A DNA stretch of 64,000 bases, taken from Sorex araneus (Eukaryota; Chordata; Mammalia; Eulipotyphla; Soricidae). This document shows positions 88 to 63,664 of the stretch, piece after piece. The number at the start of each line of letters is the position of its first letter. Position 1 is the stretch's first letter. The translations under genes were made by a program, and so were the position numbers. Where the stretch lies: contig NC_073308.1 in the NCBI RefSeq assembly GCF_027595985.1, positions 12,673,011-12,737,010 of the forward strand, in the 5' to 3' direction. Below the pieces are notes generated by a model, which did no database searches, was not told the DNA's origin, and saw only the letters and a program-made list of their open reading frames with translations.

Positions 88-270
88 CCTGTCGATGTCA
101 CTGTTATCCCATTGTTCATCGATTTGCTCAAGCAGGCACCAGTAATGTCTCCATTGTGAGACTTGTTGTTACTGTTTTTGGCATATCAAGTATGGCACGG
201 GTAACTTGCCAGTCTCTGCCGTGAGGGCAGGATACTCTTAGTAGCTTGCCAGCCTCTCCGAGAGGTACTA
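88..270 (-). repeat. RTE-tailed SINE (class B), head missing
   Basis: Antisense copy. It opens with a short cactgt-type tail, then the conserved tail block (atcccattg..catcgatttgctcaagc, then the cagtaatgtctccattgtgag block), then the 'tttttggcatat' and 'gcttgccag' blocks. The tRNA-like head that should follow is absent; the sequence passes directly into a family C fragment. Confidence 0.75.
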
Positions 271-539: not shown

Positions 540-850
540 GAGGCTAGAGCAATAGCACAGCAGGTAGGGTGTTTGCCTTGCACACGGCAGACCCGGGTTT
601 GATTCGTCCTTTCCTCTTGGAGAGCCTGGCAAGCTACCAAGAGTATCCTGCCCGCACGGCAGAGCCTGGCAAGTTACCTGTGGCGTATTCGATATGCCAA
701 AAACGGTAACAATAGGTCTCATTCCCCTGACCTTGTAAGAGGCTTCAATCATTGGGGAAGAAGAGTAAGGAGAGGCTGCTAAAATCTCAGGGCTGAGGCT
801 GCCCGCTCGAGTGAATCAACGAACAACGGGGATGAGAGTGATACAGTGAT
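540..850 (+). repeat. RTE-tailed SINE (class B), long-tail form
   Basis: A complete sense copy: a tRNA-like head with A-box and B-box-like segments (ending 'gggtttgattc'), the 'gagagcctggcaagctacc' module, 'attcgatatgccaaaaac', then an extra ~80-bp segment ('tcattcccctgacc' ... 'ctaaaatctcagggct') found otherwise only in family C, and the RTE-like tail ending in gagtgatacagtga. It links the SINE to family C. Confidence 0.8.
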
Positions 851-3734: not shown

Positions 3735-4318
3735 TGCCCCCATGCCTGGCTGTCTTCCCTGGGGCCCTTCAGAGGGGGTGGGCTTCAGTTTCCCTCCCCG
3801 TTCCCAGCAGAGCTCCCGCGGCCAAAGACCTCTGGAGCCTAGCCACAGCCATGTTCAAGACCCCTCTCCACATGTTCCAACAAGCCTCACGCATAAAGGT
3901 ACCAGCAGAGGAACCCAGGTGTGTGGGATCCAGGGCTGAGACCTCCAAGCCTGCTTGGATCGGGACTGGGTCTCTTCCACCCAGATTCCCCATTTTCCAG
4001 TAGCTAGACAGTCATACCAAAGAGACTGCCCCCGGCACCGTGTAATCCCACCAACTTCCAACATCCATAGACTATAAAACCAAGCTCCTGGAAGCTTTTA
4101 GCCTAGTTCTCCCTCTAAAAGAACCTGGCAAGCTACTGAGAGTTTCCTGCCCACATGGGAGAGGCTCGCAAACTCCCCTGGCATATTCATATGCCCAAAC
4201 CAGAAACAATGCTGGGTCTCATTCCCCTGACCCTGAAAGAGACTCCAATGTGGCACCATTGGAAAAGACGAGTAAAGAGAGGCTTCTAAAATCTCAGGGC
4301 TAGGATGAATGGAGACCT
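3735..4318 (-). mobile_element. Family C element (non-autonomous, RTE-tailed), copy 1
   Basis: Third copy of the repeat family also present at 28943-29930 and 44335-44872, in the opposite sense to them. On the + strand it reads from a GC-rich 5' part ('tggctgtcttccctggggcc', 'agcagagctcccg') through 'ccagtagctaga' and 'gtgtaatccc' to a tail 'ggagaccttactgagactgcttgag'. The simple-repeat end is lost, being replaced by an A-rich run. Note that its element sense reads along the + strand; strand '-' marks inversion relative to the other two copies. Open frames here are short and not shared. Confidence 0.75.
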
Positions 4319-4356
4319 TACTGAGACTGCTTGAGAAAACAAACAAAAGGGGACAG

Positions 4357-4492
4357 AAGGTTAGAGAGATAGCTCAATTGGATGGAGCACTGGTATTGGG
4401 TGAAAAACTCCAGATTCAGTCTCTGGCACATATGCTCCAGAGCACTACTAAGAGAATCCGCCTGCCACCCCCCAAACCCAAATATTCTTAAA
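4357..4492 (+). repeat. Old tRNA-like SINE
   Basis: The segment has an A-box-like 'agagatagctcaattggatgg' region, a B box-like 'agattcagtctct' and a tail that becomes A/C rich. It is clearly diverged from the young SINEs and lacks their body. Confidence 0.4.
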
Positions 4493-12659: not shown

Positions 12660-13390
12660 CACAGTGCCCAGGGAATGCATCCGGGCCCAGTTGAAGAGCT
12701 TGTCAACAGGAAAGATGCACACCAAATTTGAAAACCCCAGGTTCTGCACGCAGACAACACTTGGTTTGAAGAGAGGCAAACTCCAGTGTAAGGACATGAT
12801 AATGTCTAAGTAGTATAGTATCCGTGCTTCTATCCTATAACCTGCCTGCGGAAACATGGCTCTTCTAATCGGAAAAAAAAGTAAATTGATTATTTTTTTC
12901 TTTAGTGATTGATCACTTGAACTGCTGACCATATGGTTTAAGAAAGCTTTTATGTTTCATGCAAAGCTTGCATCTCCATGAGAGAACATCTATTGTCACT
13001 TCAAAGTCCATTTTTTAAGTTTTTAGACATAATAGTGAAATGAAAGATATGAGAAACTACTGAGATTAGAATTTATTTACTTGCTAATTTAAAAAGGGTT
13101 TTGTGTTTACCATAGAAATCAATTTTTGTATTCAAAAAGGGTGCATGTATTATAACTCCCAAGAGGGACAACTTATTAATATTAAACATACCCCATTGTT
13201 GCCTATGAAAAGAAAAAAGACAATAAGGCAACACCCTTGCAACAAATACATGAAATTAGAAGTGCTATAAACTGCTCTGCCAAGCAAACTCTTCAAAGCA
13301 AACTTTCATTTTTGCCTAACTACAAAAGCTTGCAACTTTTCTGTCCAGGAGCTCTTAACATTCTGGCATCAATTTCAAATATGGATCAAT
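12660..13390. other. No recognisable gene
   Basis: GC content falls sharply past 12.7 kb. The sequence to 13.39 kb is AT-rich with no recognisable family. Confidence 0.45.
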
Positions 13391-13394
13391 TGGT

Positions 13395-13453
13395 TCCAGT
13401 CGGCACCAGTAACATCTCCATTGTGAGACCTGTTGTTACTGTTTTTGGAATTT
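13395..13453 (-). repeat. RTE-tailed SINE fragment (class B)
   Basis: About 55 bp of antisense class B tail: 'ggcaccagtaacatctcc', 'attgtgagacctgttgtt', 'actgtttttgg'. Both ends are missing. Confidence 0.7.
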
Positions 13454-13459
13454 AAAATA

Positions 13460-14505
13460 TATTCCTCATTTTAAACCTTGTCACTGTTTTAAATATTTTT
13501 TTTGTATCTAGAGAATCTCCAGGAATAACTGGAAACAAGTATTAATAATATTTTGATCAGAATTTCATTTTTTGATACTTTGAAAATACAGAATAGCTGT
13601 CCAACATATTAGTACTTTTGAAACCTAAAGAAGGAAGTCTTACATTTTATATGACACAATTGAAATTCAGCAAACAAAGGTTCTTTGTCATACCATGAAC
13701 CAACATTTGAAACCTCTCACCTCAATCATTCTTTGTTTTTTTTTTTAATGGAAGTTTTCTGTGAAAGCATTACATAGCAACAAATACTTAAGTATTTACA
13801 AATTATGTTCTTAAAAATTGATAACTTGAGTTGACCAGTTGTCCTTAGATGGTCCTTTTGAATTCATGGTCTGGAAAAAAATAACTTTGCCAGGATAATA
13901 TCCCAGTCTCTGAGCCATTCCTGAGTCTTTGAAAAGCCTTGGTTTCTCCCATTATTCAAGTCAGTTCTGTTCTAAAAAAAATCTGTGCTGTTGCCCAGCA
14001 CTATTTACCAGAGGTTAGTAGGATTTTCTGCTTCGTTTCATCTTCTGAGAGACTATAATTCTTAATTTTTGCTTTCTATAAAAAGGCATCTTGGTTCTAA
14101 TCTATTTGTTTCCTTCTTGTTTTATTCTTTGATATTTGGATCAAGTTCCACAAGGAAGAGGTAGACAAGGACAGAATTTTTAAAAAGGAAGGAGAAAAAC
14201 TTCTGTTTGGTTTTTGTTTTGTTGGGTTCCCCCTGCCACCTCTCTTCCCCACCTCACCCCCCACCCCACTATACACACGTTATTTGAATGAGAATCAATA
14301 GATGGTAGCTGGTCTTTTTTAACAAATCTCAAATAACAAAGGGTAAAGGTTGACACATAATAAAGACCATTTGAAATTCACAGTGTGGGTATGAAATGTA
14401 GATAACTGTCAACCCAATTTAGCTTATGAAATTGCACCAGGCTGAAAGAATTGCTCAAGGTCATCTAATAGTACTAGAACTTACTAATTTAGATCTCAAG
14501 TTCTT
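13460..14505. other. No recognisable gene or repeat
   Basis: AT-rich sequence with a T run near 13737 and a C-rich stretch near 14228-14275. Confidence 0.45.
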
Positions 14506-15235: not shown

Positions 15236-17556
15236 AAGAAATCACTTGTATCCCTTGTTATCCCATTCATCTTCGATTTGAATGAGAGAGCGCCAGTAAT
15301 GTCTCCATTTGTCTCTGTCATGTGCTACTGTACTCCAATGGTGTCTACTCACTCCAGGAACATGAAGAGCCTCAAACAGTTGGTTCAGGGCTTTGAGGAA
15401 GAAGTCTGACCATCTCGTAGGTAGGCAGTGTTTTGACATCCCTTGGAATCCAGTCGGGAACAGCTCTAGTGCAGAGTTCATCTCTAAATCGCACTACGTG
15501 TCAGGCCCATCTGATTTTCTACACCTTGGCAAACTAGACAGTATCTCCTATTCTTTTTTTTTTTTTGCTTTTTGGGTCACATCCAGCCATGCACAGGGGT
15601 CACTCCTGGCTCTGCACTTAGGAATTATCCCTGGAAGTGCTCAGGGGACCATATGGGATGCTGGGAATCGAACCCGGGACGGTCGTATGCAAGGCAAACG
15701 CCGTACCCGCTGTGCTATCACTCCAGCCCCCCAGTGTCTCCTATTCTTGATCCTCAATGGAGGTCAGAACTCCAGATTCCTTCCCTCACTTGAGTGAAAC
15801 GTGATACTCCAAGCATAGCTCTTTCCATTCCTCTTTGGGATACCCAAATAGCGTACTTGACCTATTTTCATAGGGCCCAGGTCTCTGAGGCATATGTTAG
15901 TGCAGGAAGAATGATCAAGTTGAAAACAGTGCCAGGAGCTGGAGGTTCTTCGTCCTCTTAACAAGTTCTTCAATGCTCTTGAAGACATTCCAAGCTGCTC
16001 TCTTCCTCCTGCGCACTTCTGGTGCCAAGTCTTTGTTTATGTTGATTTCTCAACCCAGGTACACATAGCTGCTGCATTCAGAGAGCAAATGGAACATCAG
16101 AGACTAGTTCAGTTTTCATGAACATTGTCTTGGTGAGATTCAGCTGCAGTCCAACCTCTCCACACTCGAGGTGGATGTCAGTCAGCATTTGTGCCACTTG
16201 GCTGATGTTTGGTGTCATCGGAACGATGATATCAACGAAGCAGAGGTGGTGTAGTTGCTGATCATCTAACTTCACTCCCATTCCTTCCCATTCCAGTCAT
16301 CGCATGATGTTCTCGAGGATGACACTGAAGAGTTTCGGTGAAATGGTATCACCCTGCTGAAACCCTCTCTTTGCGCTAATGATCACGTCCATGTAGAATG
16401 GTAAGATCCTGGTGGTGAATCTGTAATACAGCTCCGGGAGAACTTGACGTACTGAGTTTGAACACCCTGTTTGGCTAAGGCTTTGATGACTGCTTCAGGC
16501 TCAACAGAATCGAAGGCCTTCTTTAAATCAACGAACGTCATACAGAGCGGCATCTTGAACTTTTGCAAAACTTCAATGAGCTTGGTCACTGTGTGGATAT
16601 GGTCGACCATGTTTAATTCTTTTTCAGAACCTGGCTTGCTCACATGGTTGTCCTTCATCCAATGTTCTGCTTATTCACAATGTCTCAAGTGAACAACTTG
16701 TAGATGACGGGCAACAGGCAGACTGGGCAATAGTTGCCCATGTCCTGGATGTCTCTCTTCTTGTACAACAGAACAGTCCTGCTGGTTTTCCATTGGCACT
16801 GAACCTTGCATACAGGCAGGTAGCATGTGAATTGCTGAGCCAGTGTTTTGAAGAGTATTGGTGGTAAATTCTTCAGGTGTTTGAGTCTGACCTTGTCTGG
16901 ACCGGGTGCTGTATGCGTCTTTACCAATGAAATGGCATGTCAGATTTCAGAAGGGAGGACATTGGGAACGACATATCCATCTTGCAGAATTTGATTTCTG
17001 GGCAGGTGGATGTGGCTGTCGAAGAGATCTGAGTAGAAGTCATGAATAATCCTGTCCATTGCCCTTCTGTTAGATGTGATAGATCCATCAGTACGCCAGA
17101 AGGCAGTCATCTTGGACTTGTAGTTGGTGAAGGACAGCCCAGCATTGCGAACACCTTTCCCAGCTTCTGCCTCATCAGCAAACATTGCTGCTCTTCTCTC
17201 TTTGAGGTCTTTCTTTATTGCTTCTCTGCATAGCTTTGTGAGCTCGAACATTAGCTTGTGATTGCTGAGCTCGAGAGTTTTGAAGACAGGCATCTGTTTG
17301 TGGCTTTCCCACTCTTAGCGTTCCTCATGTAGCCATGGAAGTGCTGAACTAGTTGATTGTATTCCTCATCGATGTCATCAATGATGGCATCTTCCCAATA
17401 ATGTTGCCCCAATAGTGCCAAAGAACTCCCAGCTGGTGGTCATTCTGGGAGTTCTCTTCTTAAACTTAAACTTTGCATTCCTTTCTCCCCACTCTGTGAA
17501 GTAGAATTTTGCACGAAGGAGATGGTGGTCCAATCCCATTTAGAATTTGCAGTAAG
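15236..17556 (-). mobile_element. RTE-clade LINE (RTE1-like), 5'-truncated and decayed
   Basis: A - strand retrotransposon about 2.1 kb long excluding the SINE inside it. The conceptual protein runs from the end of the endonuclease domain (FTEWGE-like and 'TSWEFF' blocks near 17.4-17.5 kb), through 'REAIKKDLKERRAA' and 'FYSDLFDSHIHLP' (17.0-17.25 kb) and the reverse transcriptase ('TAPGPDKVRLKHL', 'VDLKKAFDSVEPEAV', 'GLQLNLTKTMFMK'), to the C-terminus '[13 protein letters not shown]' at 15.3 kb. It would copy its own RNA into DNA at a nicked target. The catalytic FADD box reads FVDI (16228-16239), and several frameshifts and stops break the frame, so it is dead. The protein type is unlike BovB. 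It matches the RTE1 family shared by strongylid-type nematodes and the common shrew, as I recall from a 2019 report of horizontal transfer. SINE and family C tails copy its 3' end. Confidence 0.9.
15556..15731 (-). repeat. tRNA-derived SINE (class A) inserted in the RTE element
   Basis: Well preserved antisense copy from a T tract to 'tatcactccagcccc'. A 17-bp duplication with one mismatch flanks it: 'cagtatctcctattctt' at 15539-15555 and 'cagtgtctcctattctt' at 15732-15748. It is younger than the RTE copy it splits. Confidence 0.92.
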
Positions 17557-17639: not shown

Positions 17640-18330
17640 CTGCAGGGAGTTTAGGTTTATTGAGTAACTCCCACCACAGTGCTTCTCAGGCACACCAAAT
17701 TCCATCAGGCATTTCCAATACTCTGTCTTTATGTTTGACCACACCTTTGTGCTCTTCTTCCCCTGTTTCTTAATCATGTATATCTCCAAATCAGACACTG
17801 TAACTTTTAAAGTCAAAGTCTTCTAAGGACTCTGGATTCTGTATATGTAAGTGATATGTTGCTTTTTGTTTTCCTTAATGTACTTTGAATATTTTATTTT
17901 AGAGCAGTGGCCCTTTTGTATAGCCACAGGAAGACAGTTGATGCAATGCTTAGCTAAAATGAAGGTTAATTGACTCCGAATAATATTTACTCCTGGGCAT
18001 CCTACATAATTATTTGACTTAAGCCTCAGTTCCTGTTAGTTCCTAACTCTCCAAAAGGGGAATCCGAGTGAGGAATTTGGATTCACCCAGGGCAAGTGGT
18101 TAGCTACCCTGGCATCAAAAAGGATGAGCTAAGCACCATAAAAAGTATAATAAGTTAAAAGCACAGTCATGGAACAAACTGTCATGACCCAAAAAGAAGT
18201 AACTGAATAAGGACCCTGCTGAGGTTAGGAAAGGCTAACCTGGCCTTCCAACTGTATTCTGGGTTATAAAGCAAGGTATCTCATGGAAAAGCCACCCTTT
18301 AACCTTACTACAGCTCTTACTGTATTTGTA
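17640..18330 (+). repeat. LTR-like repeat (family E), copy 1
   Basis: Shares a long run of blocks with copies at 34.25-35.3 kb and 39.44-39.73 kb: 'taggtttattgagtaactcc', 'cacaggaagacag', 'actcctgggcatc', 'tgacttaagcctcag' and 'tgaccc-aaaaag'. It contains a ~150-bp insertion-like difference near 17.7-17.85 kb. The right edge is uncertain. Confidence 0.6.
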
Positions 18331-25750: not shown

Positions 25751-26296
25751 AACCAAACTTTGAAAGCAAGAGGATAACTAAGATAAAGAAAACTAAATAT
25801 CACAAGCATATCCCTCTCCACCAAAAAAAAGAGGGTCCGCTGAAAATGGAAATATCAATTTTTCACTAGGTGGTCAGGGAAGGCCTCTTTTAAGGCTAGC
25901 TATTTATAGCAAGAAAACGGAGATTGAGAATGAGTCATGAATGCAAACTGTGAGGAGAGTTGGCAGATAAAATGTGTAAATCAAGATGAGGCAGCCAAGT
26001 CGTTTGTAAGAGGCAATAAACACATCAGTGTTTCAGAGAGACCCTGCTTTCTCAACATCTAAATTACTGGGTAGTCTCTTAATATTTTATATTTCCACTT
26101 CTCACATACTTGCACTTTAGCATAGTGGGATATTAAACACTTGATATCTTTTTAAAAAATGTATTTCTTTAGAGCATTACAAAACCATTCATGATTGGAT
26201 TTCAGTCATACAGTATTCCAACACCCATCCCTCCACCAGTGTATGTTTGCCAGCACCAGTGTCCCCACCTTCCCTCCCATAACTCCCCTCCCCACT

Positions 26297-26430
26297 ATCC
26301 TGCTTGCATGGCAGAGTCTGGCAAGCTCCCCATGGCATATTCGAAATGCCAAAAACAATAACAACAAGTCCCACAATGCAGACGTTACTGATGCCCGATG
26401 AACAATGGGATGACAGTGCTAAAGTAAAGT
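26297..26430 (+). repeat. RTE-tailed SINE (class B), head missing
   Basis: Sense copy with 'gcagagtctggcaagctcc', 'atattcgaaatgccaaaaac' and the tail 'gcagacgttactgatgcccg' ... 'caatgggatgacagtg'. It sits inside the L1 3' UTR. Confidence 0.8.
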
Positions 26431-28942: not shown

Positions 28943-28995
<53 letters not shown>

Positions 28996-29008
28996 TATCA
29001 TCATCATC
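28943..29008. repeat. (ATC)n tail of family C
   Basis: About 22 ATC units with one TAT interruption, immediately at the 3' end of the element; an RTE-style simple-repeat tail rather than an independent microsatellite. Confidence 0.9.
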
Positions 29009-29277
29009 CCATTGATCGTCAAACTTCTGGAGCAGTCTCAGTAACATCTCCATCGTCCAAGCCCTGAGATTTTAGAAGCCTCTCTCTCTCATCCTTCCAA
29101 CAATGCCATAATGGAGGCTGTTTCAGGGTCAGAGGAATAAGACAGAGCTTGTTACTGGTTTTGGCATATTAATACACCATGGGGACCTTGCCAGGCTCTC
29201 CCATGTGGGTATGAAACTCCCAAAGTTTTCCAGGTTCTCCCAGAGGGAGAAGTAGGCTATAAGATATTGCGTGGCTG

Positions 29278-29530
29278 TCTATTGCAAGATACAGCACCCC
29301 AAAGGAGAGAGAACAAAAGGGAATACCCTGCCGCAGAGGCAGGGTAGGGTTGTGGGGGATTGCGTGGGGGTAGTGGGAGGGATACTGGGAACATTGGAGG
29401 AGGAGAATGGGCACTGATAGAGGGATGGGTAAACTATCACTGTATGACTGAAATGCAAACATGAAAGTTCATAAGTTTGCAACTGTACCTCATGGTGATT
29501 CACTAATAAAAAATTAAAAGGAAAAAAAAA
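29278..29530 (+). mobile_element. L1 3' end inserted in family C
   Basis: Sense L1 3' UTR ('ccctgccgcagaggcagggt' ... 'gtgattcactaataaaaaat') ending in poly(A). A 17-bp duplication 'aagatattgcgtggctg' flanks it (29261-29277 and 29531-29547). Confidence 0.93.
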
Positions 29531-31599
29531 AAGATATTGCGTGGCTGCAAAGCGGCTGTGCACTTCCGGAAGCTGGCTTTTAAGTCTTTGGATGCTGGCC
29601 TTTGACAGGATTTCACGGCGCTGGGGGCAGTCCCTGAGTGTGACCGCCTAGTTACTGGAAGATGGAAAATCTGGGCGGAGGGGGCCCAGTCCAGATCCGA
29701 GCAGCCTGGGAGGTCTCAGCCCCGCGTCCCACACACTTGAGTTCCTCTGCCGGTTCCTTCATGGGTGAGGCTCATCCAAATGTGTGGAGAGGGGCCTTGA
29801 GCATGGCTGTGGCGAAGCTCCGGAGGTCTTCAGTCACCGAGAGCTCTGCTCGGGGTGGAGAGAGAAGCTGGAGCCCATCCCCTCCAAGGAGACCCCGGGG
29901 AAGACAGCCAGGCATGCAGGCAAGAGACTCTCTGGATGCCCTTAATATATATTTCTTGCTAACTGCTATGGCAAGTAATTTCATTACTATATTTAATAAA
30001 GTGGCAGGAGTGGGCATACTTGTCCCTGATCTCAGAGGGAAGCCTCTTAGTTATTCTCCATTAAGAATAATGCTTGCTGTGGACTTATGGTAGATGGATT
30101 TGACTATAATGAGGAAAGTTCTTTCAATTCCCACTTACCTGTGAGTTTTCATCATAAATGGGTACTAGATCTTGTCAAATGCTTTCTCTGCATCTATTTA
30201 TATGATTATATATTTTTCTTTTCTTTTATTGATGTGATGGATTATGTGGATTGGTTTGTGAATGCTAAAGTATACTTGCATAGCCAGGATGAATCCCACT
30301 TAGTCATGGTGTCCGATCTTTGTGATGAGTCGTTGGATTCTATTTGCTAATATTTTGTTGAGGAAATTTCCATATCTGTTTTCTTCAGGGGTAGAAGTCT
30401 GTAATTTTTGTTTTTTCGGTGCTATCTCTATCTGATTTTGCTATTGCGGTGATATATGCCTCATAGAAACTGTTTGGAAGTGTTGATGTTTCTTCATTTT
30501 CCTGGAAAATCTTAAAAAAGACTGACCATAAGTCCTCTTTAAATGTTTGAAAGAATTCACTAGTGAATCCGTCTGGACCTGTGCTTTGGTTTTGGAAGAC
30601 TTTTGATTACTCTTTCAATTTCCTCGATAGTGATAGATCACGTATCCCAGGTCTTCTTGGTTCTGCCTTGGGAGGTTATAGGATTCCAGATGTCTATTAA
30701 TTTCTTCTAGGTTCTCTTGTTTCATGGCATGCAGACTTTCAAAGTAATCTCTGACGATCTTTTGAACTTCTTTGATTTCTGTTTTGATGTCCCTCTTTTC
30801 TTTTCTGATTCGATTTATTAGGTTTCTCTCTTTCTTTGTAAGTCTTGCTAGTGGTATATCAATCTTGTTTATTTTCTCAAAGAACCAGAACTTGGTTTAA
30901 TTGATCTTTTGGATTTTTCTTGGGGGGGGGGTTCCATGTCGTTAATTTCTGCTCTAAGTTTTATTATTTATTTCCTCCTGCCTGGTTTGGGCTTCTTTTG
31001 CTGGTTGTTTTCTAATGTTTTAAGCTGTGAAGTCCAGTTATTTATGTGGGTCCTTTCTTCCTTCCTGACAAATGTTTGAAGAACTATAAAATTTCCCCTT
31101 AGTACTGTTTTAGCTGTGTCTCACACATTCCGGTAGCTCATGCCTTCATTCTCATCTGTTTCTAGGAATCTTTTGATAATTTTCTTGATGTTATCTTTAA
31201 TCCACTAGTTGTTCAACATTGAGCTATTTAATTTCCAGGTGTTTGACTTGATTCTTGGTTTCTGTGTGTGATGAACTTCTGTCTCAGAGCATCATGGACC
31301 AAAAAAAGATGGTTGATACAATTTTTATCTTCCTGATTCTATTGAGGTATATTTTGTGACCCAGCACAGGGCCTATTTTGGAAAATCCCGTGTTCACTGG
31401 GAAAGAATGTGTCTTCGGTTTGGGGGAGATGAAAAGCCCTGTACACAACAATTAGCCCTCTCTCTTCGATTTCTTCCTTCAGAGCCAGTACTTCCTTGCT
31501 GATTTGATCTGTCATAGCAGATAAATTGGTGTTGAAGTTCCAACTACTTTTGTGTTGGACTTTTTCTGTATTTTGGTCACTGTCTCTTTTTTTTTTCAT

Positions 31600-44334: not shown

Positions 44335-44872
44335 CACGATCATGATCACGATCACGAAATCCCGTTGGTCGTCGATTTCTCGAGTGGGCTCAGTAACCTC
44401 TCCATTCGTTCTATCCCTGAGACTTTAGAAGCCCTTCTCTACTCGACCTTCCCAACGATGCCGCATTGGAGGCTCTCTCAGGGTCAGGGGAATGAGATCC
44501 AGCTGGTTACAGGCTTTGGCATATGGATATACCATGGGAAGCTTGAGAGGCTGTCCCATGTGCACAGGAAACTCTCAGTAGCTTGCTAGTTTCTCCCAGA
44601 GGAAGAAGTAGGGTATAAGTTATTGCTTCTGGGAGCTTGCTTTAAAGTCTCTGAATGTTGGTTGTTGATGGGATTACACACCTAGGTTCCTCTGCTGGTA
44701 CCTTCATGCATGAGGCTTGTCCGAACGTGTGGAGAGGGGCCTTGAGAATGGCTGTGGGTAGGTTCTGGTGGTCTTCGGCCACTGGGAGCTCTGCTCGGGA
44801 CGGGGAGGGAAGCTGGAGCCCATGCCTCCGAGGGGCCCCGGGGAAGATAGCCACGCCTGCGGGCAAGAGTCA
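44335..44872 (-). mobile_element. Family C element (non-autonomous, RTE-tailed), complete copy 3
   Basis: A 538-bp insertion flanked by 'ttttacattt' at 44325-44334 and 44873-44882. The 3' end (left on the + strand) is a short (CACGAT)-type repeat, then the RTE-like tail ('gtcgtcgatttctcgagtgg', 'gctcagtaacctctcc'), the SINE-shared middle, and the GC-rich 5' part ending 'gggcaagagtca' on the right. It shares order and ends with copy 2 but has a different tail repeat unit, which marks the family's natural boundaries. Confidence 0.87.
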
Positions 44873-57380: not shown

Positions 57381-57622
57381 CACTGGAGAGATAGCACAGC
57401 TGTTGGGCATTTGCCTTTCATGCAGTCGACCTGAATTCGATTCCTCTCCCCTCTCAGAGAGCCCGGCAAACTTCCGAGAGTATAGAGCCCACTCGGCAGA
57501 GCCTAGCAAGCTACCCGTGCGTATTGGATATGCCAAAAACAGTAAAAATAAGTCTCTCAATGAGAGACTTTACTGGTGCCTCCTTGAACAAATTGATGAG
57601 CAACGGGATGACAGTGATAGTG
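57381..57622 (+). repeat. RTE-tailed SINE (class B), complete, with target-site duplication
   Basis: Sense copy from 'cactggagagatagcacagc' to the tail 'gggatgacagtgatagtg', flanked by 'acatagtat' (57372-57380 and 57623-57631). Its tail in one frame reads 'LYWCLLEQIDEQRDDSDSD', matching the C-terminal end of the RTE protein. No poly(A). Confidence 0.9.
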
Positions 57623-58495
57623 ACATAGTATTTCATTGTGGAGATGTGCCATAGTTCCTTTATCCATTCATCTGTTCTTGAGCACTCAGGTTCTTTCCAG
57701 ATTCTGGTTATAGTGAGTAGTGCTGCAATGAACATAGCCGTGTAGAAGGGGTGTCTGCTGTACCCCCAATGTATATTCACAGAAGTAGTGTTGCTGTGTC
57801 AAATGGGAGCTTAATTTCTAGTTTTTTGAGAAACATCCATATAGTTTTCTAAAAAGATTGGATGAGTCAGCATTCACATTAGAAATAAAGGAGAGTCCCT
57901 TTCTCCCCACACCCATGTCAATACCGTTTGCTTTTGTTCTTTTTGGATGTGTGCCAGTCTCTATGGTGACAGCTATTGTTGTTTTGATCTGCATCTTCCT
58001 GCTGATTAGTGATAAAGAGCATTTTTGCATGTGCATTTTGGTCATTCAAATATCTTCTTTGAGAAAGTTTCTGTTCATTTGATCCCCCCATTTTCTGATG
58101 GGATTGGCTGTTTTTAATTTCTTGTAGAGTTCAACCAGTTCCTTGTTAATATCTTCGACATTAACCCCTTATAAGAAGGCTATTGGGTAAACATCCTTTC
58201 CCATCCTTTCCCATTCTGTAGGCTGTCTTTGTATCCTGGTCACTGTTTCTTTTGAGGTGCAGAGGCTTTTTAGATTAAGATTTGTTTATCTTTGCTTCCA
58301 CTTGCTTGGTCAGTGGCATTTCATCTTTGAACACCTTTAGCTTCAATACCGTGGAGGGTTTTGCTGATCTTTGCTTCAATGCACCTTATGGAATTGGGTT
58401 TGATGTTGAGGTCTTTAGTCCATTTTGATCTAACTCTCATGTCTGGTGTTAGGTAGAGGTCTGAGTGCGTTGTTTTAGAGCTATTTTTTTCTTTT

Positions 58496-60592: not shown

Positions 60593-61089
60593 AAAAATTT
60601 TATTGAATCACCGTGGGCTGGAGCAATAGCACAGTAGGTAGGGCATTTGACTTGCATGTGGCCGACCTGGGTTCGAATCCCCGACCCCTGAGAGCCCGCC
60701 AAGCTACTGAGAGTATCTTGCTCACACGGCAGAGCCTGGCAAGCTATCCGTGGTATATTCGATATGCCAAAAACAGTAACAAAAAATTTCACACGAAGAT
60801 ATTACTGGTGCCCGCTCGAGCAAATCAATGAGCAATGGGATGACAGTGACAGTGACAGTGATTGAATCACTGTGAGATAGTTACAAGCTTTCATGTTTGG
60901 GTTACAATCACACAATGATCAAACACCATCCCTCCAACAGTACACATTCCCCACCACCACTATCCCCGGAATACACCACCTTTCTCATCCTTCCCTAGAT
61001 AATGCACCAAACATGATGACCTCTCAGTATCTATGTTGCAAGCCATAATGCCCCAAAATAGAGAGAGAATATGGGGAATATTGTCTGCC
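60593..61089 (-). mobile_element. L1 3' end inserted into another L1
   Basis: Antisense L1 3' UTR ('attgaatcactgtgagatag' ... 'ccaaaatagagagagaa') embedded in ORF2 of the host L1. 'ttggatttttt' (60582-60592) and 'ttggattctttttt' (61090-61103) are likely duplicated target sequence. It is itself split by a class B SINE. Confidence 0.8.
60616..60860 (+). repeat. RTE-tailed SINE (class B), complete, third nesting level
   Basis: Near-consensus copy: 'ggctggagcaatagcacag', B box 'gggttcgaatcc', 'gcagagcctggcaagc', 'attcgatatgccaaaaac', tail 'attactggtgcccgctcgag', then three GACAGT units. Duplication 'attgaatcaccgtg' (60602-60615) against 'attgaatcactgtg' (60861-60874). Confidence 0.93.
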
Positions 61090-63363: not shown

Positions 63364-63419
63364 TTCCTCAGTCTGTTACTGTCTTCCCTTGGAAAGATTG
63401 TGTCTACAGGTTATGATTT

Positions 63420-63664
63420 CACTGTCACTGTCATCCCATTGCTCATTGATTTGCTTGAGCGGACATTAGTAATGTCTCCATCTTGAGACTTGTTCTTACT
63501 GTTTTTGGCAAGTTGAATACACCACGGGTAGCTTGCCAGGCTCTGGTGTGAGGGCGAGATACACTCGGTAGCTTTCAGGGCTCTCCCAGAGGAGCAGAGG
63601 AATCGAACTCGGGTTGGCCACGTGCAAGGCAAATGCCATAGTGGCTGTGCTATTGCTCCAGCCC
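63420..63664 (-). repeat. RTE-tailed SINE (class B), complete
   Basis: Antisense full copy: CACTGT units, 'catcccattgctcattgatt', 'taatgtctccatcttgagac', 'gaatacaccacgggtagc', 'cagaggaatcgaactcggg' and 'gctattgctccagccc'. Confidence 0.9.

Follow-up and report, generated by a model that had tools for sequence, protein, structure and literature searches.

Results

A decayed RTE copy interrupted by a SINE

The window, meaning the whole stretch of DNA analysed, comprises 64,000 nt of the genome of the common shrew Sorex araneus (C7:12673011-12737010), within an assembly scanned as 2.406 Gb in 65 contigs. Its minus strand carries a decayed retrotransposon that is split by another insertion:

15241..17548, minus strand: decayed, 5'-truncated RTE copy (endonuclease end, reverse transcriptase (RT) and C-terminus), located by tblastn with P0001
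16224..16240, minus strand: degenerate catalytic box reading CFVDII, FADDI in relatives (read-through and comparison with other copies)
15555..15731, minus strand: A-tailed Sorex-type SINE of 177 nt that splits the RTE coding part (target repeats, empty sites, primer and probe match)
15732..15747, minus strand: 16-nt target-site repeat, left copy on the minus strand, one mismatch between the two repeats
15539..15554, minus strand: 16-nt target-site repeat, right copy on the minus strand, with the same mismatch

P0001, a nematode-type RTE protein of 946 residues, matched this feature over residues 229-946 in four tblastn pieces running from 17548 to 15254 (best E 2e-146), a similarity that chance does not explain. 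The N-terminal 228 or so residues are gone, and most of the endonuclease has been cut away with the 5' truncation. An earlier note on this DNA had described a decayed LINE with an FVDI catalytic box and quoted three peptides of a minus-strand RTE-clade protein. The peptides are found on that strand as given (REAIKKDL.. starting at 17227, VDLKKAFDSVEPEAV at about 16532 and a 13-residue peptide at 15322), the box is read at 16240-16224, and the decay is evident from the truncation and from a read-through with eight stops and several frame changes. Of the four other copies compared, two have FADD at this place and another differs by a single change ahead of DD; FADD is likewise read in L021, a copy with an open frame described below.

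When five separate open pieces of the window copy were scanned against Pfam, four were without any match and the lone match, to RVT_1 (E 3e-6, 27.4 bits), lay slightly below the cut-off of 29.6. A genome search with three short peptides of the copy joined as one query gave no match. The RT piece had ten matches to solved structures, the best being R2 and L1 proteins (best E 1e-11). An APE endonuclease and an RT are combined in a single ORF in the sister copy L021, and P0001 also contains both RVT_1 and Exo_endo_phos. The 3' end of the RTE has repeat-like ends (AGTGATACRAGTGAT) in the copy L011 and clear repeats in partner elements, and is blurred in the window copy. Judged by its kinship with RTE endonuclease-reverse transcriptases, the feature is an RTE-clade LINE. 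Separately, weak RTE-protein matches on the minus strand at 52806-52210 and 60403-59866 look like the RT remnants of another LINE, likely L1.

Duplicated copies order the insertions

The SINE inside the RTE is presumably the element named SOR. A published Sorex SINE assay (PMC8608897, as far as its primer and probe sequences) matches it, with one mismatch in the reverse primer at 15616 and four in the probe at 15649. A DNA search of the genome with the window RTE copy (40 of 22,595 candidates scored) returned 63 matches. With the window's own counted, C7 has six SINE-bearing copies of 97-100% identity, and two more are partial at 97 and 99%. Three copies on C9, 88-90% identical, have 52 nt of flank in common with the window copy but no SINE; where it would lie, the two pieces matched in each copy overlap (by 16, 16 and 17 bases), so that these are empty sites. 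The remaining matches have 74-84% identity across the longest piece. The truncation point, 17548, is query position 53, at which 19 of the 63 matches begin exactly, as expected of independent insertions.

The order of events is therefore RTE insertion, an older duplication, SINE insertion and a recent duplication. The earlier note had read a SINE insertion in this LINE, which the 16-nt target repeats and the SINE-free C9 copies establish, and the decay, the SINE insertion and the later duplications support its view that residence had lasted some time. The window itself belongs to a segmental duplication family on C7, in which RTE and SINE recur at 97-99% at 5.0, 5.7, 5.9, 12.7, 12.8 and 26.4 Mb; positions 3780-4420 of the window are also found again in L013 (C7:5.0 Mb) at 98.75%.

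A nematode-type element in a shrew assembly could in principle be nematode DNA contaminating it, and the portions of Dunemann & Wasmuth 2019 (PMC6542046) drawn on here do report Trichocephalida contamination of older S. araneus data. The window copy, however, lies on a 77.8-Mb contig, is decayed and holds a shrew-type SINE; it is one of thousands of copies, distributed across all large contigs seen; and a 28-nt RT piece of the RTE, allowing at most two mismatches, occurs at 2,200 + 2,275 = 4,475 genome sites (reversed control, 0). The read tests in PMC6542046 also rejected contamination for RTE1_Sar, the shrew element treated in that paper. The contig, the C7 and C9 duplicates and the number of RT-piece sites lead us to reject this explanation, to which we assign a practically nil chance.

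The shrew copies group with strongylid nematode RTEs

In a protein search with the window RTE, all 111 organism-labelled sequences among the best 120 of 516 hits came from strongylid nematodes, the other nine being unlabelled. With L021 as the query, 24 of the best 120 of 399 hits had no organism and the rest were nematodes, including Caenorhabditis and Plectus. We built a tree from 33 hand-picked rows: five shrew copies, 15 strongylid-type, ten other nematode-type and three BovB, the last being database records. The shrew copies form one clade (100/99) and join the strongylid RTEs at 100/100; other nematode RTEs (Necator, Ancylostoma, Haemonchus, Caenorhabditis, Plectus) come next, and BovB lies outside. 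Smaller earlier trees agree, and in none of the trees does the window RTE group with BovB proteins. The tree program warned of long branches meeting, those of the Plectus row and BovB, and BovB is the sole vertebrate RTE in these trees, with RTE1_LA, RTE-1_EC, RTE-X and AviRTE left out. A BovB protein is also filed under Mycoplasmopsis arginini (P0123) and Mycolicibacterium malmesburyense (P0158), probably reflecting ruminant contamination of bacterial records.

These results bear on whether the window element is a vertically inherited mammalian RTE, either BovB or another vertebrate lineage. BovB is RTE-clade as well and its RT aligns to the window (E 6e-15), and RTEs with partner SINEs are known in other mammals (Ohshima 2013, PMC3747384, Table 1). 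Against this, a long, fully supported branch divides BovB from the shrew and nematode set, and the organism-labelled hits are nematodes only, among the matches listed. With BovB, the one vertebrate lineage sampled, outside that set, we reject BovB identity and vertical inheritance on the trees and leave such a reading a very small chance. The earlier note had called the element a nematode-type RTE distinct from BovB and proposed an RT tree as the check; the 100/100 clade of shrew and strongylid copies upholds the first, and the tree places the window RTE inside nematode RTE diversity, far from BovB.

The direction of transfer is a separate matter. Strongylids excluding the shrew copies are supported at only 72/63, which fits a shrew clade either nested in or sister to the sampled strongylids. 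Transfer from shrews to nematodes, or to both from a third host, would be compatible with that weakly supported order, and several of the closest proteins (P0001-P0003) carry no organism label, among the matches listed. Outside the shrew and strongylid clade, however, the next relatives are again nematode RTEs, and the element is carried by nine nematodes and one mammal according to the cited portions of PMC6542046; we thus regard this reading as unlikely and favour entry into shrews from a strongylid nematode or by way of a relative of one. P0001, P0002 and P0003 derive from short contigs and, of the full-length proteins among the matches listed, come nearest to the shrew copy; their source could be a closer relative of the donor.

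A transfer of this kind is already in print, as the earlier note had said: Dunemann & Wasmuth 2019, in the portions cited, describe transfer of RTE1_Sar between nematodes and the common shrew, with the S. araneus element adjoining H. polygyrus and N. brasiliensis at low confidence, and report it absent from hedgehog, solenodon and mole. Like RTE1_Sar, the window RTE lies in the shrew genome, groups with Trichostrongyloidea-type RTEs, has strongylid nematodes as its nearest relatives, is abundant and decayed, and is not BovB. By inference, the window copy is almost certainly RTE1_Sar, and it is a confirmation of the published transfer, not a new one. The same portions describe an S. araneus consensus that is not full length, with no full-length ORF identified and a fragmented ORF in the longest copy, and partner SINEs go unmentioned in them; here we find RTE-tailed SINEs and one full-length open frame, in L021.

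A SINE family built from the leader and 3' end of the RTE

Shorter repeats in the window, which comprise SINEs and longer non-autonomous elements, share as their 3' end 54 nt found at the end of the RTE ORF:

60616..60857, plus strand: SINE with tRNA-like head, RTE 5'-leader body, RTE 3' tail and (GTGACA)n; flanking repeat ATTGAATCAC
57383..57625, plus strand: RTE-tailed SINE; flanking repeat ACATAGTAT; sub-threshold Rfam tRNA match, E 0.1
63419..63663, minus strand: RTE-tailed SINE; no clear flanking repeat
90..270, minus strand: RTE-tailed SINE body and tail, head not found (sequence match)
542..849, plus strand: longer form of the RTE-tailed SINE, with head, longer leader-derived body and tail (sequence match)
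26296..26418, plus strand: partial RTE-tailed SINE, body end and tail with a gap (sequence match)
13385..13465, minus strand: partial RTE-tailed SINE, weak match (tail score 22 of 54)
3780..4420, plus strand: non-autonomous RTE element, 5'-leader-like part and 3' end (tail under the score-20 threshold of the tail scan)
44346..44821, minus strand: non-autonomous RTE element, leader-like part and 3' end, ending in (GTGATC)n (sequence match)
28992..29876, minus strand: non-autonomous RTE element split by a further insert and terminating in (GAT)n (sequence match)

The SINE, about 235 nt in total, consists of a tRNA-like head of about 79 nt, about 104 nt of RTE leader, 54 nt of RTE 3' end and a short tandem repeat. 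Its tail aligned to the window RTE with a score of 30 (best of 1000 dinucleotide shuffles, 17) and matched the RTE 3' end at 43 of 54 positions in L021, 48 in L011, 46 in L022 and 46 in L023. The majority body matched the RTE leader at 88/96 positions in L021 (score 80) and 83/96 in L011 (score 67), the best of 300 shuffles scoring 16; within the stretch fetched, no leader match was found in L022 and L023, so that two of the four copies examined have it. The 5' part of the long non-autonomous elements, like the SINE body, matches the leader immediately upstream of the ORF in L011 (E 7e-18). That leader-like part had also been considered as an L1 homologue, a candidate dropped once the RTE leader match was found. 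In the head, a B-box-like GGTTCGATTCC is seen, and one head gives a sub-threshold hit to the Rfam tRNA model (24.6 bits, E 0.1). Flanking repeats of at least 8 nt accompany 6 of 17 SINEs; among 200 swapped pairs the number is 11. The 3' repeat after the tail is of at least two kinds in the window and L001-L020, GTGACA-like and GTGCTACA-like, suggesting subfamilies.

On sequence comparison, the SINE has its 3' end in common with its partner LINE. A SINE may nevertheless merely pick up RTE sequence and be moved by L1, as the A-tailed Sorex SINE would be, and SOR, the SINE inside the window RTE, has the same kind of tRNA-like head. SOR, however, has a poly-A end and no RTE body or tail, whereas the RTE-tailed SINE ends, as RTE copies appear to, in RTE sequence followed by a short tandem repeat, and SINE/LINE partners are generally marked by matching LINE tails (Ohshima 2013, PMC3747384, in the part cited). 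Movement by L1 is accordingly improbable, and the RTE enzyme is the more plausible agent.

We found no published shrew SINE with an RTE tail among the openly accessible papers searched; the shrew is absent from the 13 mammalian SINE/LINE rows in Table 1 of Ohshima 2013 (PMC3747384). As far as that search reaches the partner SINE family is new, though its kind is already known.

The SINE outnumbers the RTE and is of similar age

The 30-nt junction of body and tail (AAGTCTCACAATGGAGACRTTACTGGTGCC) occurs exactly at 17,922 + 18,304 = 36,226 places genome-wide, and its reversed control at none. To gauge density we used a 200-kb sample (20 places of 10 kb at hand-chosen round positions on C1-C10, with 2,700 bases N), which held 28 SINE tails scoring at least 20, with 0 in the reversed sequence. 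Thirteen of the 28 have a full head, two are RTE copy ends and two lie in L013, the duplicate of the window start. The other 24, in about 197 kb, scale to about 290,000 per 2.4 Gb, a figure that is rough because the places were hand-chosen and L013 duplicates part of the window.

Fifteen SINE copies differ from their majority sequence by a mean of 0.113 (K2P, CpG excluded; range 0.049-0.387). Pairwise distances among five RTE copies are 0.150-0.266 (mean 0.215), or about 0.11 each, and SINE and RTE are therefore similar in age. At mammalian neutral rates, such divergences translate into tens of millions of years.

One RTE copy has kept an open frame

Genome matches to P0001 (59, from 48 of 89,178 candidates scored) include only one stop-free match longer than 132 residues, at C12:345154236-345157115. 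This copy, L021, contains the following frame:

L021:613-3702 (C12:345154113-345157202), minus strand: ORF of 1,029 codons from ATG to stop, beginning in the leader and extending past the RTE end

Its product has RVT_1 (114.7 bits) and endonuclease (33.2) domains. The motif A aspartate and motif B glycine of the RT are replaced, both being kept in all four other copies compared; we take the aspartate to be catalytic. L021 is single-copy, with nothing else above 78% amino-acid identity (45 of 112,774 candidates scored). A recent active insertion is disfavoured by its private changes of about 9%, the level of a decayed copy, by the lack of a relative above 78% and by the two changed RT residues.

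The private changes number 51, 64 and 57 by codon position, with 139 nonsynonymous and 40 synonymous against 129 and 44 at random; since they match random placement, plain purifying selection over the whole ORF is rejected. L021 has 0 stops against 7.8 or 6.4 expected, an outcome shared by 0.0002 and 0.001 of random placements respectively; it had been selected as an outlier without stops out of thousands of RTE copies. Across nine segments of the ORF, which were fixed after the overall ratio was known and before the counts per segment, the synonymous share varies to a degree reached in 0 of 1000 random placements. In the same test the controls gave 675 (L011), 303 (L022), 105 (L023) and 504 (the window copy) of 1000, the first segment of L023 being probably misaligned, with 102 of its 158 private changes there. 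Compared with P0001, the frame is preserved across four length changes of 10, 3, 8 and 11 codons, an argument weakened by the nucleotide alignment, in which several length-difference runs are not multiples of three.

Together these observations tentatively suggest L021 as a candidate host-adopted protein. The fuller reading, in which the RTE gave rise to a SINE family, built from its two ends, that runs to some hundred thousand copies, and the host also kept L021 as a protein that has lost the ability to reverse-transcribe but retains its endonuclease motifs, we consider doubtful. No finding of the L021 type was met in our literature search. L1TD1 (PMC4161310, in the part cited) would be a parallel for L021 only, as a protein of LINE origin that a mammal has retained; it comes from L1 ORF1 and shows conservation between species, whereas L021 is RTE-derived and known in one genome.

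Discussion

We put a probability of about 0.93 on the reading that the window holds a dead RTE1_Sar LINE, which entered shrews from a strongylid nematode or by way of a relative of one, and that this RTE amplified partner SINEs. We propose a model in which copies are made as in the RTE family generally, by target-primed reverse transcription: (i) The APE-type endonuclease of the RTE protein would nick DNA and its RT, acting at the RNA 3' end, would copy the RNA from there. (ii) Deleted RTE RNAs that keep the leader and 3' end would be copied as well. (iii) The tRNA-like head of the SINE would have it transcribed by pol III, and the transcript would recruit the RTE enzyme through its RTE tail. 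Mobilised in this way, as the shared ends suggest, the SINE family may have been amplified by the RTE until it became more numerous than the RTE itself.

Comparable systems are known. AviRTE and its SINEs (Suh et al. 2016, PMC4844689, in the part cited) likewise involve RTE transfer between birds and nematodes, and those SINEs join a promoter head to a bipartite LINE 5'/3' part, the same plan as in the shrew. AviRTE is nevertheless a different RTE lineage, described in that paper as distant from known nematode RTEs, and it is by this description that we set it apart. BovB resembles the shrew RTE as a horizontally transferred mammalian RTE, and its tRNA-headed and 5'-end/3'-end non-autonomous partners, Bov-tA and Bov-A2 (PMC3747384, Table 1), are the ruminant analogues of the elements described here; what sets BovB apart from the shrew RTE is its place outside the nematode RTE clade.

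What the window copy contributes is confirmation of the published transfer in an assembly of chromosome scale, together with empty sites and a nested SINE that can be dated. Should L021 prove to be a genuine gene, a mammal would have a LINE-derived protein of nematode origin. The partner SINEs would show that the footprint of a LINE transferred from parasite to mammal can lie mainly in its non-autonomous offspring, with 36,226 exact junctions against 4,475 sites of one RT piece at up to two mismatches, and the 30-nt junction would provide a simple marker for dating the invasion across shrews.
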